The notes beneath the pieces were generated by a model, which was not told the origin of the DNA, did not search any database, and saw only the letters and a program-made list of their open reading frames with translations. This document shows, one piece after another, positions 13,101 to 46,600 of a stretch of 64,000 nucleotides of DNA. The translations under genes and the position numbers were made by a program. The number at the start of each line of letters is the position of its first letter. The stretch's first letter is position 1. Source of the DNA: Hetaerina americana (taxonomy: Eukaryota > Arthropoda > Insecta > Odonata > Calopterygidae); contig JAKTNV010000004.1 of the NCBI GenBank assembly GCA_022747635.1, positions 16,926,969 through 16,990,968 on the forward strand, read 5' to 3'.

Positions 13101-16100
13101 TGGAGATTATGTTGAGAAGTAGTTTAAAGTATCCTCTTTCAAATAAAATTTTTTATGTTTGTTAATATTTACTTTTGTGTCTTTATTTCACGAACGGGTA
13201 CTACTTTCCGGATGACCCTCGTACCAACCTTTAACTAGCCTAGTTCCATATAAATATAAATAAATTAGAAAAGAAAAATGCAGGTACTATAATTTTTTTT
13301 CAAAAACAGGAAAATGCGGTGTCATTATTTTCAAGTCTAATACATACTAGAATAGTAAAGTCAATAAATTTTAGTACTAGAATGTCAATCACAGATCTTT
13401 CCTTGGTGAATCGTCAGTTAATATCCATAGTATATTTTCAGTGAGATAAAATAAATTTGAATAAAAAATGGTTTAAGGTGAAATTTTAAACAATCTCATC
13501 TTCTCTGTTTACAGATGGTTTTTATTCCTCTTAGTCATGGTTTCTGTTGCTGGAACTGGTTGTGACTTACTTTCATCAACGGGAACTGAACAAGGTATAT
13601 TAATATAGGTTAAGATTAGTATTGAAAATGAAATAAAGTAAAAGTGCAACAGTGTCAATAGTAAAAATTTATATGCAAATCTTGAACATGCCTAGTTAGT
13701 AATTGTTCATACTGATAAACACTCTCATGATATACATGGGTTGTTCAATAAATCCTTGGAAAAATATTAAAAAACAAATTATTTGGGGGGATTATTTTTC
13801 AGTCTCATTTTAGCTCAATACACCCTTCCCATCATTTTTCTCCAGCTATTTTTAGCCGATCAAAAATTCTGATTTCAGAAGATCCTCAATAACAAAATCT
13901 AGGATGACAATGACCTTGTTTGAAGTGAATAGTTTTGCATCAAGATGTTTTTTAAATTTGAAAATCAAAAAAGTCACTGACAGCCAAAGCTGCTGTTTAC
14001 TGTGAGTAGATGAACACAGGTACACCCATGCATTGTCTTAACAATAGAGAATTTTTCCTTGCCAAATGAGGACTTTTTTATTTTGTCACTCAACCAGTGC
14101 AATAGTAACAAATAATGCTCTCCATTTATCATTTGTCCTATTTGCAAGTAACTGATGCAAACGATTCCATACGCATCCCAAAAGTTCACGACCATCACCT
14201 TGTCGGCTGATTTTACCATCTTCACATTCTTTGGAGCCAGGATTGCTTTTAGAAACCCACTGTTTCAACTGCTTTTTCTCTGGAGTATAATATTGTATTA
14301 ATTTTTCATCCCCAGATATGTATTAATGCAGAAACTCATCAGGATTCGGATGGAAAAGCACCAAACCAGCCTCTAAATGGACTACACAATTGTATTTATT
14401 CTCCACTGAAAGCTAATGCAGCACCCATCTTGTCGCAATTTTTTTTGCATCCAATGTTTCATTCGACATTGAAAAAACTGTATGTTATAATGTGCCTGGG
14501 GCCTCAACCATTTTGTAAACTTTGATACATCGATCAATCAAAACCATATCTACAGTGTATTGTTGGATTTTCTAAGGAATTAATGAACAATTCACATTCA
14601 ATAGTTCCCGGCTCAACCTTGTGGAAATTCATTTCAATTAAATGAAGAATACAATGTATCTTTGCACTGTCCTTTATTCATGTACAACCGGTTTCAATGC
14701 TCAAGCGTCATCATCAGGTATCTGATGATGACGCTTGAGCATTGAAACCGGTTGTACGTGAATAAAGGACAGTGGAAAGATATCCTTTATTCTTCATTTA
14801 ATTAACAATTCACATATTAAGTCATCTTCACAAGATTTGTATAGAATTGCATTTTTTGGCAATCCAAGGAAGTTTGCCTTTTCTCACTTCATTAATTTAG
14901 TTTTTATGGAAACTGCATTACTTGCACTTCAATCTCAATCCATAAGTTATTTTCAGATGTTGATATGTTGATGAAAATGCCTGACCTTCTTTTAATGAAA
15001 GTGGAATCTATCTCCAGAAAAACCATGCTGTTTGAATCTATCAAAGTTTCCTGGAAGGAATATTCTGGTGTCATTTTCTGTTCCTGCAAACATTAAAAAA
15101 ATATTGGGTTCTGGACCAGCAATCTCACGTAACTCATCAACAACTTTGGATTGCTTGGATGGAGTTCGCTTCCTTAGTACAATATGGGTCACCTTGACTC
15201 ATAAAGTACTCCTCCTGACAAGAGAGCCTTTTCTCAACAAAGGACATCTAAAGGAAGTAAGTTGAGAAAGCCTCAGAGTCCCAAAGTATTTGAAACTTTG
15301 GAACCATTCACGCCAGAAAGCCTTAATTCATAGCTGCAGCTATTACTTAACAAATACTTCAATAAGAAAATTTTTAATATACATACATCCATCCCAGCCC
15401 AAGTTTCATTCACAGGGACATATATGGGTACCCTCAGCTTTACCTAAGCTGTGTGATTTTTCAGGCACAAGATCTTCCTAATAACCCTCTGGTAGCACTT
15501 TGAATTAACTAGACCCCCATGCTCCAATGGGTGAATTTCCTATGCTGCTGGGTTCACCCCTACCTCCACCTACCACACCAACATTCAGATTGATGACAGA
15601 GGATTTATGTATAATTTTTTTATTTTAGGAATAAGGATTTTATTTGGCATGATTTTCAATTGTCTACATTGATGTTTTTCCTATAAGGGTACTGTTTTCT
15701 TGGGACAATAATTGTACACATAGCCTTGAAACAGCCATCATTTTATTTTAGTATGATTTAGCTTAATAATAAATGCAACCTAACTCGTGGAAATATTAAC
15801 CATTAAGTGCACAATTATTAAATGCCTTGAAAGTATTGCAAGTAATTGTAATGTAATCTTTGGGCAAAGAGGCATATTATTATATAGAACAATTCCCTAG
15901 ATCCATATTTTCTTGAATCCAAAGAGTATAATGATGTAATGATTTTTTTCATTTAGTAAGAATGTACAAAAACTTTTACATTCTACCACTACTTTATCCT
16001 TATCAAAACATTTTTAACCTATTTGAATCAATTTTCTGCCACTAATCTTGGCACTGTTTGAGGAAGATTAATTTTCCCAAATTAGCAACAAGTATGTATT

Positions 16101-43603: not shown

Positions 43604-46600
43604 CTACATAAATAAAACATTCGGAGGATTAAAATGATGCAACCAAATAGAAATAACTAAGTATGATAGCAGCAAATGAACACTTGAGTTTCTCAAAATA
43701 AATTCTCTTTGAGTCATGTGATTCAGAAAATTGTACCCCTGCCAAACAGGTTGTACAAGAGCCCTATTACTTAATATGAAAATAATGAATGAGTGAATAC
43801 AAGTTCATTAGAAATGCTTAAGTAGATACTTCTTGTTGACTTATCAAAACTATACACTAATATAAATAACTTTGACACACCAACCTTGAGGTATCTTTTT
43901 GAGAAGTTTAGTAAACAAGACTGTGCATTTGCCAAAAAAGCTCAAATTTCATTCAAATTCAGTTTTAACAGAGATGGTATTTTTTTCTGAAATTGAGATG
44001 GACAAAACAATAAAACCATATTCTAGTTATTTGCTATAAGTAAATCATTAGACCAAGGAAGAAAAATCAATATGACCTTAAAAAAAGTAATATAGCATTA
44101 AACATGCAATTTTGAAACTGGAATTGATAGTTAAATTTAAAGAGAGCATATTGAGCATAGTTGAGTCAATAACTAACACATACTGCAGTGCACCACTGTT
44201 GTGTCCGGAACAGCGTCACAAAAATATGAACAAAGTATTATAGGGACAACAATGAAGCAAAACACACAAGGACTGTAATACCCTCACTACACCTCATACC
44301 AGAAACCTAATAAATATTCCTATACAAGTTGGACATGAGAAAGTGTTTAATGTGTAAACCAGGAGCCAAGAAAAACAAAACTTATTTATTTACCTCCTAT
44401 TTTCCAAAATTTAGCCAATTAAAAATCTAATTTCTTTGAACACTTTAGGTGAACTTCAAGCTTACATAAAATTCTTAGAATATCCCTAAATATGCTCAGT
44501 GTATAGAAAACACTCAAAATGACGAGCAAGATGTAATGGTGTGTAATACAACATAAATATCGCAAAATAGAGCAAATTGAAATTGAGCATGTTTAAATGA
44601 CTCTATTTAATTTAATTTTCAGGCAAAAAAATTCCCCACGACAATAAAACTGCTGTTCAATTAGTCTGTTATGCAGAAAATAAAATGCTTAGTCAAATAG
44701 AAATATTTTGGTTACATTTACCATTTTTATGTAACACTATGCATCCTTTTCCGTTAGTTTCTTTGAAGACATATTTGGTTGAAATTGACGAAAATATGTT
44801 TCATTAAAAAACTGACTCATCCTATTATTCAGACATTAAGTGAGCCAACACATTCAAATCAAAACGGGAGTTCAAACTAATTAGATATAGATATACCCAA
44901 CATAAACAAATTTAATGCAATAATGAAAAAACAATGGCTGGAAGTGGGAAATCACTTTGCAAATTCACAAAAGCTAACATATACATTAGTTTTGTGTTCT
45001 GGGATCCCTAAAACACCATTCTCATTGCTGCAATACCATACGTATGCACCCCAGTGTATTAATTCAAATTTACACACTTAGCCACAATTTTTACCGATTA
45101 ACAATATTCTTATCAGTAATCTACCAGTTAAGGAAGATTTTGGATGGACACAAGCTACCAAACAGCACAGTACCAATTCTCTTGCCTCTCCCAATTAAAC
45201 AAAACCTGAAACTGGACAACAAAATAAACCCTTTTCATTTCTGCATTCTTATTTTCTCCCTTCATCCTGCTCAACATGCCTATCCTATACTTACCCTTCC
45301 CTCGTTTGCTTAATGTTCTCTCCTCTATCACAGTCTTCAACATTTCATTACCAATGAAAATACTCTGCATCCACTTATCCTGTCTCCTTTGAATTTCTCT
45401 CAACATACCCTCTCCTTGCCCAACATGCCTAGCTCTTCCTCATTTGTTTATATTTCTGTCAATTTCAACTCTTCTTCCATCTGCGTAAATTCCTCTTGGG
45501 TCCTCCACTGGGTTATATCGTCCACATTGGCCGACGTTTCGATGTCCGACTCGGTCATCGTCTTCAGGGCTTCTGAATGCCGTTTGCCTCTTTTTTCCCG
45601 TAAATATGTGGTTTTCCCCCCAATCAGGTGTCATTTGATTGGTCCGTATCAAGCCGCCCGCCGTTCCTGGTTTCACCCATTACTCCAAGGATCGGTGGAA
45701 AACACGTGGAAACCAATCCTTAGAGTAATGGGTGGCACAGTGGGCGGCCAATGGGAAGGCTCCCTGATACGGACCAATCAAATGTCACCTGATTGGAGGG
45801 AAAACCATATATATACGGGAAAAGAGAGGCAAATGGCATTCAGAAGCCCTGAAGACGATGATCGAGTCGGACATTGAAATGTCGGCCAATATGGACGATA
45901 TAACCCGGTAGAGGACCCAAGAGGAATTTACGCAGCTGATACGCCGGGAAAACACCAAATCTTCTTCCATCCCTCTCCACACAATCATTTCAAAAGCCTT
46001 CAATTTATACCAGTTATCCATCTTCTATGACCATCTTTCCGTACCCTACAAAACTATGCTCCATATCAAAGTTTTGATGAGTCGTTTCTTAACATCCTTA
46101 TTCATTCCATCAATGTTTTATTAACATCAATCCTCATCCTGCATCATTAGCCTATCAGACTTATTTTCTAATGTGCTCAGCGATGCTTGTAACCCATTGG
46201 CTGAATGAATAATTAGAGGTTGATCATCCACAAACATATCTGATTTTATTAATTGCCTTCCAACTTTTATTTCTATCTCCAGTTTTTCCCATCTCTCTTT
46301 GATCGTTTCTTCCACACAAACATTGAAAAGCATGGGTGGGGATAGACACCCCTGTGTTACCCTCTCGTCTTAACACTACCTATCCACCACTCACAACTGA
46401 GCAGTCTTGATAGGTGTAGGTACAGGTTGCAGATCATATCCCTCCAATCCAGTCCTATTTTCTGCAATACATAAATGTATTCTACCCAATTTACATAATC
46501 AAATGCATTTTTGAAATCTATGAAACAGACAAATACATCTTGATTGTATTCTATATTCCCCTCTATTAGTGACTTACTTCTACGCATGCCTCTCCCAAAT

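Follow-up and report, generated by a model that had tools for sequence, protein, structure and literature searches.

How do small palindromes with a hammerhead-like motif in each arm become inserted in a genome? The question is raised by three such insertions (elements 1, 2 and 3; 14598-14803, 34138-34360 and 45482-45959), which were located from the sequence and by repeat search in the window, i.e. the whole 64,000-nt stretch of Hetaerina americana DNA analysed here. Penelope elements constitute the third class of eukaryotic retroelements, and how their insertion is completed remains open. A new copy of a Penelope-like element (PLE) has been described as arising after second-strand synthesis and repair, via additional steps yet to be validated (PMC11167929). 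The palindromes would be a record of how elements of this poorly understood class insert.

Layout of the insertions

The three insertions share the plan that a preliminary description had proposed, consisting of inverted arms, a hammerhead-like box in each arm, a tail on one side only and target duplications of 12-13 bp (Table 1). The layout within the earlier bounds stands, except that the end given for element 2 (34370) reaches into the duplication and the true end is 34360. Duplication lengths previously listed as 12, 13 and 11 bp are 12 bp for element 1, 12-13 bp for element 2 and 12 bp for element 3. The arms of element 1 are 93% complementary, those of element 2 form an inverted repeat that is 100% complementary (34136-34218 and 34228-34310), and those of element 3 are 91% complementary over 45478-45658 and 45758-45938. 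A gapped alignment extends the element 3 arms to 45696 and 45712, giving about 220-230 nt each, and its tailed arm contains TATATATA and TCAG upstream of the motif. The window also holds, at 55689, a solo arm whose motif is preceded by TATATAA and TCAGT; no second motif of the same kind was found near it.

Table 1. Features of the palindromic insertions and of the solo arm (window coordinates)
Feature	Position	Strand	Remarks
Element 1 left target duplication	14586-14597		AACAATTCACAT, 12 bp
Element 1 one-sided tail, left side	14598-14635	-	ATG at 14632-14630 (-)
Element 1 tailed arm	14636-14717	- (RNA sense = minus strand)	Hammerhead-like motif 14721-14682 (-)
Element 1 head-to-head joint	14718-14721		Modal family form AGGTACCT, one change here
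Element 1 tail-less arm	14722-14803	+	Hammerhead-like motif 14718-14757 (+)
Element 1 right target duplication	14804-14815		AACAATTCACAT
Element 2 left target duplication	34125-34137		AGAATTACTCAGG, 12-13 bp
Element 2 tail-less arm	34138-34218	-	Hammerhead-like motif 34220-34180 (-)
Element 2 head-to-head joint	34219-34227		Form unique to this copy among 30 read
Element 2 tailed arm	34228-34310	+	Hammerhead-like motif 34226-34266 (+)
Element 2 one-sided tail, right side	34311-34360	+	ATG 34319-34321
Element 2 right target duplication	34361-34373		AGAATTACTCAGG
Element 3 left target duplication	45470-45481		TCTTCTTCCATC, 12 bp
Element 3 tail-less long arm	45482-45696	-	Hammerhead-like motif 45571-45529 (-)
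Element 3 centre between arms	45697-45711		
Element 3 tailed long arm	45712-45938	+	Hammerhead-like motif 45845-45887 (+)
Element 3 one-sided tail, right side	45939-45959	+	ATACGCCGGGAAAACACCAAA
Element 3 right target duplication	45960-45971		TCTTCTTCCATC
Solo PLE-like arm, hammerhead-like motif	55685-55724	+	

Genome families of elements 1 and 2

Both element 1 and element 2 have many relatives in the genome, forming large families (families 1 and 2) with about 2,000 first-look candidates each. The best 40 of the about 2,000 candidates were scored per family, and 40 copies of family 1 and 30 copies of family 2 were read. As the copies read are the top scorers against palindromic queries, one-armed insertions would have escaped notice, and the solo arm at 55689 points to their existence. 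The preliminary description had called for a check on whether copies share a tail end and have 10-15 bp duplications, and the outcome was positive for both families. The 30-40 bp tail was found on one side in 40 of 40 family 1 copies and 30 of 30 family 2 copies, one of which (L052) also gave a second tail match. Duplications with a score of at least 8 flank 34 of the 40 family 1 copies compared to 19 of 466 mismatched flank pairs, and 28 of the 34 begin no more than 3 nt away from where the tail nominally ends. For family 2 the corresponding values are 29 of 30 copies and 12 of 352 mismatched pairs, with 16 of the 29 duplications being exactly 12 bp and 13 longer. The most frequent duplication length is 12 bp. 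Target sites are AT-rich, and no sharp motif was found in their composition. The tail-less end of family 2 copies wanders over about 12 nt. The overlap between duplication and arm in element 2 had raised the possibility that target sequence was copied inverted into the arm; this idea was dropped because the tail-less end wanders in other copies.

Hammerhead-like motifs in the arms

The window was searched for CTGANGA followed by 1 nt, stem II (at least 4 of 5 pairs), GAAA, UH and stem I (at least 3 of 4 pairs). This pattern occurs at seven places, the six arms and the solo arm at 55689, compared to a chance expectation of 0.03 per window (nine matches in 300 simulated windows), a value that is optimistic since the pattern was composed after the arms were seen. 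All 40 scored places of each family, including the window copy, match on both strands, which excludes a chance origin. Pairing of stems I and II is retained despite different letters in the seven motifs parsed, all of which carry an additional base after CUGANGA, before stem II begins; an eighth (L096) has no UH site. Rfam covariance models gave no hammerhead match at E values up to 10 in the window and six further loci, including PLE loci. As the same models also miss the motif in true PLE loci, this negative result does not discriminate. Matches to miRNA families on the arms, such as mir-981 at 34176-34270 (E 4.7e-05, short of the gathering score), were discarded as a product of the long hairpin.

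According to the part of PMC6155905 used here, PLE terminal repeats contain a minimal type I hammerhead motif without a proper helix III. The present motifs are similar in that they lie in a terminal repeat and lack a proper helix III, whereas they differ in having no Rfam match and possibly in the extra base before stem II.

Ribozymes on both strands had been proposed to cleave transcripts at the unit ends. This proposal is not supported: the predicted cut and the inner end of each arm are about 32 nt apart, and the sequence upstream of the cut is retained in all 70 copies read, these having been picked by similarity to full-length queries. In addition, folding prediction gives a single long hairpin (-146 kcal/mol) for RNA transcribed from an entire family 1 palindrome.

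Relationship to Penelope-like elements

The suggested Penelope origin is backed by the tail, its reading frame, arm similarity and the twin layout of autonomous PLEs. One arm of element 2 is 87% similar to a PLE locus. The element 1 tail in the family consensus translates to 12 residues and the codons from 34319-34321 to 34360 of element 2 give 14; both readings are Penelope-like when set beside a 14-residue stretch in an autonomous relative that carries RT and GIY-YIG domains. The frame of one autonomous locus (L107) matches RVT_1 (E 2.4e-12) and GIY-YIG (E 1.2e-05). L107 is itself a twin, additional to the seven considered below; its stop-to-stop frames measure 845 and 791 aa, and its tail is in frame with the long ORF. 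A coding test from the first ATG inside the motif, which gave early stops, was abandoned once the tail frame of L107 was known.

The ends of autonomous PLEs resemble those of the small elements in motif, frame and tail. Pairs of GIY-YIG matches less than 6 kb apart are head-to-head in 28 of 29 cases, and for 79 of the 136 GIY-YIG matches no partner was scored at distances of up to 6 kb. Six of the seven autonomous twins read have the motif at both outer ends, one end being tailed and the other ending 30-43 nt earlier. The twin centre is unpaired in L099, L101 and L102. No parent PLE with the same 5' end as family 1 or 2 was found among the 36 PLE loci compared. Elements 1 and 2 have no coding capacity of their own, their tails holding just 12-14 codons; they are PLE derivatives rather than autonomous members. 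That they are non-autonomous elements mobilised in trans, as proposed earlier, is one possibility; given their likeness to the start of a PLE message, they could also be a by-product of such a message.

Central joints and arm divergence

The joints of family 2 take 28 forms in 30 copies, compared to two to six forms for the arm 8-mers sampled. In family 1 there are 25 joint forms in 40 copies, with the self-complementary joint AGGTACCT present in 14 of the 40. This variation from copy to copy speaks against the earlier view that the palindrome moves as an inverted dimer; as the joints differ between copies, each insertion seems to have built its palindrome anew. In family 1 the joints stand out less clearly from the arms, whose 8-mers take 4-21 forms among the 40 copies. 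Repair after insertion can likewise alter the centre of a palindrome.

Outside CpG, the two arms of a family 1 copy differ at 4.5% of positions (122/2720), compared to 6.9% for arms of different copies. Divergence between family 1 duplications is 4.6-5.4% (95% 3.4-7.4), a value biased downward because only recognisable duplications were used (33 of 39 copies in family 1, 29 of 30 in family 2). Divergence between the two arms of a family 1 copy is thus similar to that between its duplications and lower than that between arms across copies. Variants found in at least 3 of 39 family 1 copies occur in both arms of a copy 37 times, compared to a mean of 8.5 and a maximum of 24 across 2000 permutations; 38 shared variants are confined to a single arm. 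This concert could alternatively stem from gene conversion between the arms. In family 2, arm divergence is the same within copies (2.0%, 41/2095) and between them (2.1%), and there are no shared variants, which leaves the concert and divergence tests without power in this family.

Formation of the palindromes

As the joints are copy-specific, the tail and duplication are constant, and family 1 arms resemble duplications in divergence, the palindrome was likely built at insertion. The in vitro data for a PLE of the anole (PMC11167929) fit this possibility. Our main conclusion, to which we assign a probability of about 0.77, is that each palindrome consists of head-to-head copies resembling a PLE 5' region, formed in one insertion in which both target strands primed cDNA on the same RNA species. 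The small elements are probably 5'-end products of PLE-type RNA, not elements that move as palindromes.

The target strands would be cut about 12 bp apart, each priming cDNA on the same Penelope-like RNA species. The first strand may prime at an outer start site on the RNA (roughly codon 12-14) to give the tail, and the second about 30-40 nt further upstream, immediately ahead of the probable start codon, to give the tail-less arm. Both cDNAs would extend to the RNA 5' end, putatively about 10 nt upstream of the hammerhead core as placed from the TATA box. End joining could then unite the two cDNA ends, in many cases through a short complementary stretch (GTAC in family 1), and fill-in would produce the target duplication. 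Since the arms retain sequence upstream of the hammerhead site, the copied RNA was apparently uncut there. The longer arms of element 3 include a promoter-like region, suggesting that its RNA started further upstream. In LINE-1 twin priming, two cDNAs are likewise made from one RNA, primed by both target strands and joined with microhomology, and the second cDNA starts far inside the RNA, giving a 5' inversion. Here, in contrast, both cDNA starts lie within about 40 nt, which would give an inverted duplicate.

Dedicated non-autonomous palindromes, in which the whole inverted dimer is transcribed and copied in trans by PLE enzymes so that arms and joint are inherited, would account for the high copy number, for the joint common to 14 family 1 copies and for the failure to see a matching parent PLE among the 36 loci compared. 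We nevertheless consider this explanation unlikely: family 2 has its 28 joint forms with arms only about 2% diverged, family 1 arms diverge as its duplications do and less than between copies, and the same twins occur in autonomous PLEs, with different arm lengths. A head-to-head palindrome could also result from self-priming, in which a single cDNA or antisense transcript folds back and copies its own strand. Head-to-head and junction palindromes of bdelloid Penelope elements were so interpreted in the part of PMC3846280 used here, where self-priming on an antisense template was favoured. For the present elements this route is improbable, as it leaves the two preferred outer ends, the one-sided tail and the ~12 bp duplication unexplained. 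Folding back into a hairpin requires some 3 nt of loop, whereas fewer than three unpaired bases are present at 21 of 39 joints in family 1 and at 10 of 30 in family 2. Trimming of a hairpin loop at a later stage is possible under self-priming.

Inverted arms, target duplications and high copy number are also expected of MITEs or foldback DNA transposons, whose terminal inverted repeats would then resemble hammerhead motifs by accident. However, only one end has a tail, with a reading frame like that of PLEs, the tail-less end wanders by several nt, the joints vary, and GIY-YIG PLEs share the same kind of ends. In the copies of families 1 and 2 that were read, the inverted repeats do not represent both inherited termini, and we give this explanation almost no weight. 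Perfect palindromes are a known class of artefact, so palindromic reads from library preparation or assembly were considered as well; this origin is extremely improbable given that duplications flank 34 of 40 and 29 of 30 copies, tails are one-sided and copies are spread over many contigs.

If two-ended priming did build the small palindromes, they record where the RNAs had their 5' ends, where reverse transcription started and how the ends were joined. Variable joints with a constant tail and duplication constitute in-genome evidence for a two-cDNA route, testable by counting. Two-ended target-primed reverse transcription may well be the normal route of endonuclease-bearing Penelope elements, an extension that we somewhat favour, with thousands of small palindromes as its fossil readouts. 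The two-cDNA route would explain the inverted pLTRs of PLE copies and the one-sided tail. For annotation, such repeats could otherwise be filed as MITEs.

Comparison with known systems

With the Poseidon PLE of Anolis carolinensis (PAc), both target strands are cut and extended in vitro, and reverse transcription begins inside the RNA at two sites that bound a tail (PMC11167929). PAc has a hammerhead motif at the start of its ORF and its main substrate is the uncut RNA. The PAc start site lies 111-118 nt into the ORF, whereas the tail described here corresponds to the probable first 12-14 codons. The main text on PAc does not report head-to-head genomic pairs as an outcome.

Metazoan retrozymes, as described in part of PMC7229834, are small non-coding elements with type I hammerhead motifs that were suggested to use PLE enzymes. 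They are direct tandem repeats with classical type I ribozymes and RNAs of about 170-400 nt. In contrast, the motifs found here are minimal, with no canonical hammerhead by Rfam, and the units are inverted in all 70 copies read, one of which (L013) has a second partial copy alongside.

In the portion of PMC3846280 drawn on here, the endonuclease-bearing Pen families of Adineta vaga have an inverted pLTR on the 5' side, palindromic head-to-head junctions, an optional 31-bp tail on one pLTR and duplications of 8-10 bp. The inverted head-to-head palindromic layout, the one-sided tail and the short duplication are thus common to both systems. The odonate elements differ in being symmetrical twins, either tiny (families 1 and 2) or long (PLE), with duplications of ~12 bp. 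Relative to that description, copy-specific joints and the divergence of arms versus duplications were measured here in addition.

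Three palindromic insertions share one plan

A preliminary description had read three palindromic insertions in the window as non-autonomous derivatives of Penelope-like elements (PLEs) with hammerhead-like arms. Sequence inspection and a repeat search confirmed all three at the places described, with slightly corrected ends. Each consists of two inverted arms, with one CTGANGA...GAAA box pair around a hairpin per arm, a tail on one side only, and a target duplicated over 12-13 bp. No second hammerhead-like motif of the same kind was found near the solo arm at 55689, the layout of which resembles genome locus L083.

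Features of the window considered in this analysis
Feature	Position	Strand	Remarks
Element 1	14598-14803		palindromic insertion
Element 2	34138-34360		palindromic insertion
Element 3	45482-45959		palindromic insertion
Solo PLE-like arm (fourth arm)	55685-55724 (motif)		TATATAA and TCAGT initiator upstream; hammerhead-like motif; stem I UUAC/GUAA
Inorganic pyrophosphatase (Nurf-38-like)	35635-36504	-	single uninterrupted frame, 289 aa
Second mariner-like transposase	19419-20563		separate frames; by eye
LINE-like reverse transcriptase frames	22755-24344 and 5253-6858		by eye

Genome copies share a tail end and short duplications

The 1.63-Gb genome was searched with elements 1 and 2, yielding 2078 and 1975 first-look candidates, respectively. 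Forty places per family were scored, including the window's own copy, and each of them matched as a palindrome, on both strands. For family 1 every scored copy was read, and for family 2 30 of the 40; L024 and L025, which have common flanks, were counted as one copy in some family 1 tests. Family 1 tails end approximately at GAACAATTGA(A) and family 2 tails at CATCGATTA(T). Using flanks of other copies as a control, duplications scoring at least 8 were found in 34/40 copies of family 1 versus 19/466 control flank pairs, and in 29/30 copies of family 2 versus 12/352. These duplications begin no more than 3 nt from the nominal end of the tail in 28 of the 34 family 1 cases and within 4 nt in all 29 of family 2, where their length is exactly 12 bp in 16 and longer in 13, chance extension counted in. 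The common tail end and short duplications proposed as a test in the preliminary description were therefore observed for elements 1 and 2. The tail-less end is less sharp than the tailed end, ranging in family 2 between GGATAAAA and TTCTTAAGC. Irregularities outside the simple layout were seen at the left end of L101, in L052 (a second tail match) and in L013 (a second partial copy).

The joint differs from copy to copy

A palindrome inherited as a unit would be expected to keep its joint, the head-to-head centre, whereas one rebuilt at each insertion would not. The centre is unconserved: the 30 family 2 copies have 28 joint forms of 4 to 37 nt, some containing filler, whereas 8-mers taken every 4 nt along the right arm of the same copies have 2 to 6 forms. 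The joints of L042, L044 and L059 extend further upstream on common sequence, (GTAT)GTCTGCAC and then CTGAAGATG. Family 1 has 25 joint forms among 40 copies, 14 of them with self-complementary AGGTACCT; the contrast is weaker because this family is older, with 4 to 21 forms of its arm 8-mers. Fewer than three central bases are unpaired in 21/39 joints of family 1 and 10/30 of family 2. The joint of L015, a family 1 copy, holds CATCTTCAGG, which when reverse-complemented is the start of the family 2 core, and is possibly filler copied from another PLE RNA.

If both arms were copied from one RNA at insertion, their divergence should match that of the target duplications. In family 1 the arms of a copy differ by 4.5% outside CpG (122/2720; 5.9% with CpG included) and the duplications by 4.6-5.4% (33 of 39 usable, only recognisable ones, which biases this value downward). 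The two are equal within error; arms of different copies diverge by 6.9%. For variants common to at least three copies of family 1, presence in both arms of one copy was counted 37 times versus 8.5 expected (maximum of 24 in 2000 permutation runs), and 38 cells are still in one arm only. Family 2 gives 2.0% between arms (41/2095) and 1.3-1.6% between duplications (29 of 30 usable, same bias); here the test is powerless because arms of different copies differ by just 2.1%.

Autonomous PLEs form twins of the same layout

A genome search for GIY-YIG gave 136 matches among 150 scored, from 3696 first-look candidates. Neighbours less than 6 kb apart formed 29 pairs (28 divergent head-to-head, one tandem, none convergent), and 79 of the 136 matches had no scored partner within 6 kb. 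Four pairs on contig C652 are almost equally spaced and probably arose from each other by duplication. In seven PLE twins (head-to-head pairs) that were read, the inverted arms are 98.6-100% identical. The hammerhead motif lies at both outer ends in six, one side continuing through the tail and the other ending 30-43 nt earlier, and at one end in L101. One arm is longer than the other in L103 and L104. The centre pairs immediately in L105, after one base in L106, and is unpaired in L099, L101 and L102. In the long twin L107, the stop-to-stop frames are 845 and 791 aa long, with RVT_1 and GIY-YIG. Duplications of 9-13 bp were seen by eye at L102 through L107.

The PLE tail, ATG TTA TGC AAA TTC CAC AAA GTT ACG CCT GAG ACA ACA AAT, is in frame with, and close to the beginning of, the 845-aa open frame, of which it probably represents the first 14 codons. 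The end without a tail falls directly before this ATG. The same place reads as 14 codons in family 2 and 12 in family 1, and the small elements therefore resemble a PLE message 5' region followed by 12-14 codons. They may derive from complete PLE messages or from short non-coding RNAs of a similar type; none of the 36 PLE loci compared shares their 5' end as a parent would. In a BLAST comparison of the window with these loci, the element 2 arms matched at 87%; element 1 had no match and is linked to PLEs by its layout, motif and tail frame.

The copied RNA appears to be uncut

Seven hammerhead motifs were parsed (two family consensuses, both element 3 arms, the solo arm, the PLE and L083). Stem II retains 4-5 of its 5 pairs and stem I 3-4 of its 4, with differing letters, and all seven have one extra base after CTGANGA. 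A short stem III precedes the UH site and is self-complementary in three (ACCGGT, ACCCGGGT, ACGT). Rfam gave no match to these motifs or to that in true PLE loci. An eighth motif, in a PLE-like arm at L096:2933 (-), has CCATGG after GAAA and GCC replacing the UH cleavage site, and is likely decayed or variant. An extra motif of another type, CTGAAGA.CGCCGGATGAAACTTCGGC.GAAA, lies beside a PLE at L092:517 (+).

The core upstream of the predicted cut is kept in the 70 arm pairs read, a sample biased towards full-length arms, suggesting that the RNA copied was uncut at this site. This agrees with the anole PLE, which inserts normally when its ribozyme is mutated and uses mainly uncut RNA as substrate (PMC11167929). 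A whole family 1 palindrome transcript is predicted to form a single hairpin (-146 kcal/mol), which speaks against ribozyme action in such transcripts.

Probable priming on both target strands

The anole PLE cuts and extends both target strands, and its reverse transcription begins inside the RNA at two sites bounding the tail (PMC11167929). By analogy with this in vitro work and from the sequences here, a staggered cut would leave a 3' end on each strand, with a spacing of about 12 bp, both priming on the same RNA species, the outer site giving a tail and the inner site none. Both cDNAs would extend as far as the 5' terminus of the RNA; judging from the TATA box in the PLE and in the solo arm, this would lie some 10 nt upstream of the hammerhead core, at the position of the family 1 and 2 joints. 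The cDNA ends would then be joined, often via a few complementary bases, and repair fill-in would generate the duplication; long PLE twins would arise from the same reaction with longer cDNAs. The 5' end position and the joining step are those that we infer.

PMC3846280 describes inverted pLTRs, a one-sided tail and head-to-head palindromes for rotifers, and favours self-priming on antisense RNA, a reading against which the loop-free joints found here count. Priming on both strands remains our preferred reading. Neither copy-specific joints nor arm-versus-duplication divergence in PLEs was found in the titles and abstract openings listed by our searches of open-licence literature.

Other features of the window

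The pyrophosphatase is possibly a retrocopy. Its nearest relatives are arthropod: Ladona fulva, a dragonfly, gives the best named match (54% over 98%) and Ischnura elegans, a damselfly, the highest identity (62% over 82%); proteins from locust and wasp follow closely. These matches suggest, though weakly, an insect host, perhaps an odonate. Window positions 12467-12787 are identical over 321 bp to L101:1-321, the left edge of that PLE twin; judged by eye, this stretch looks mariner-like (ORF 12621-13028), and because of the 100% identity its family may have been recently active. In the second mariner-like region, 323 bp at 20380-20702 are 98% identical to L083 sequence, and 1,081 bp of the LINE-like frames (23050-24129) are 89% identical to L075 sequence.
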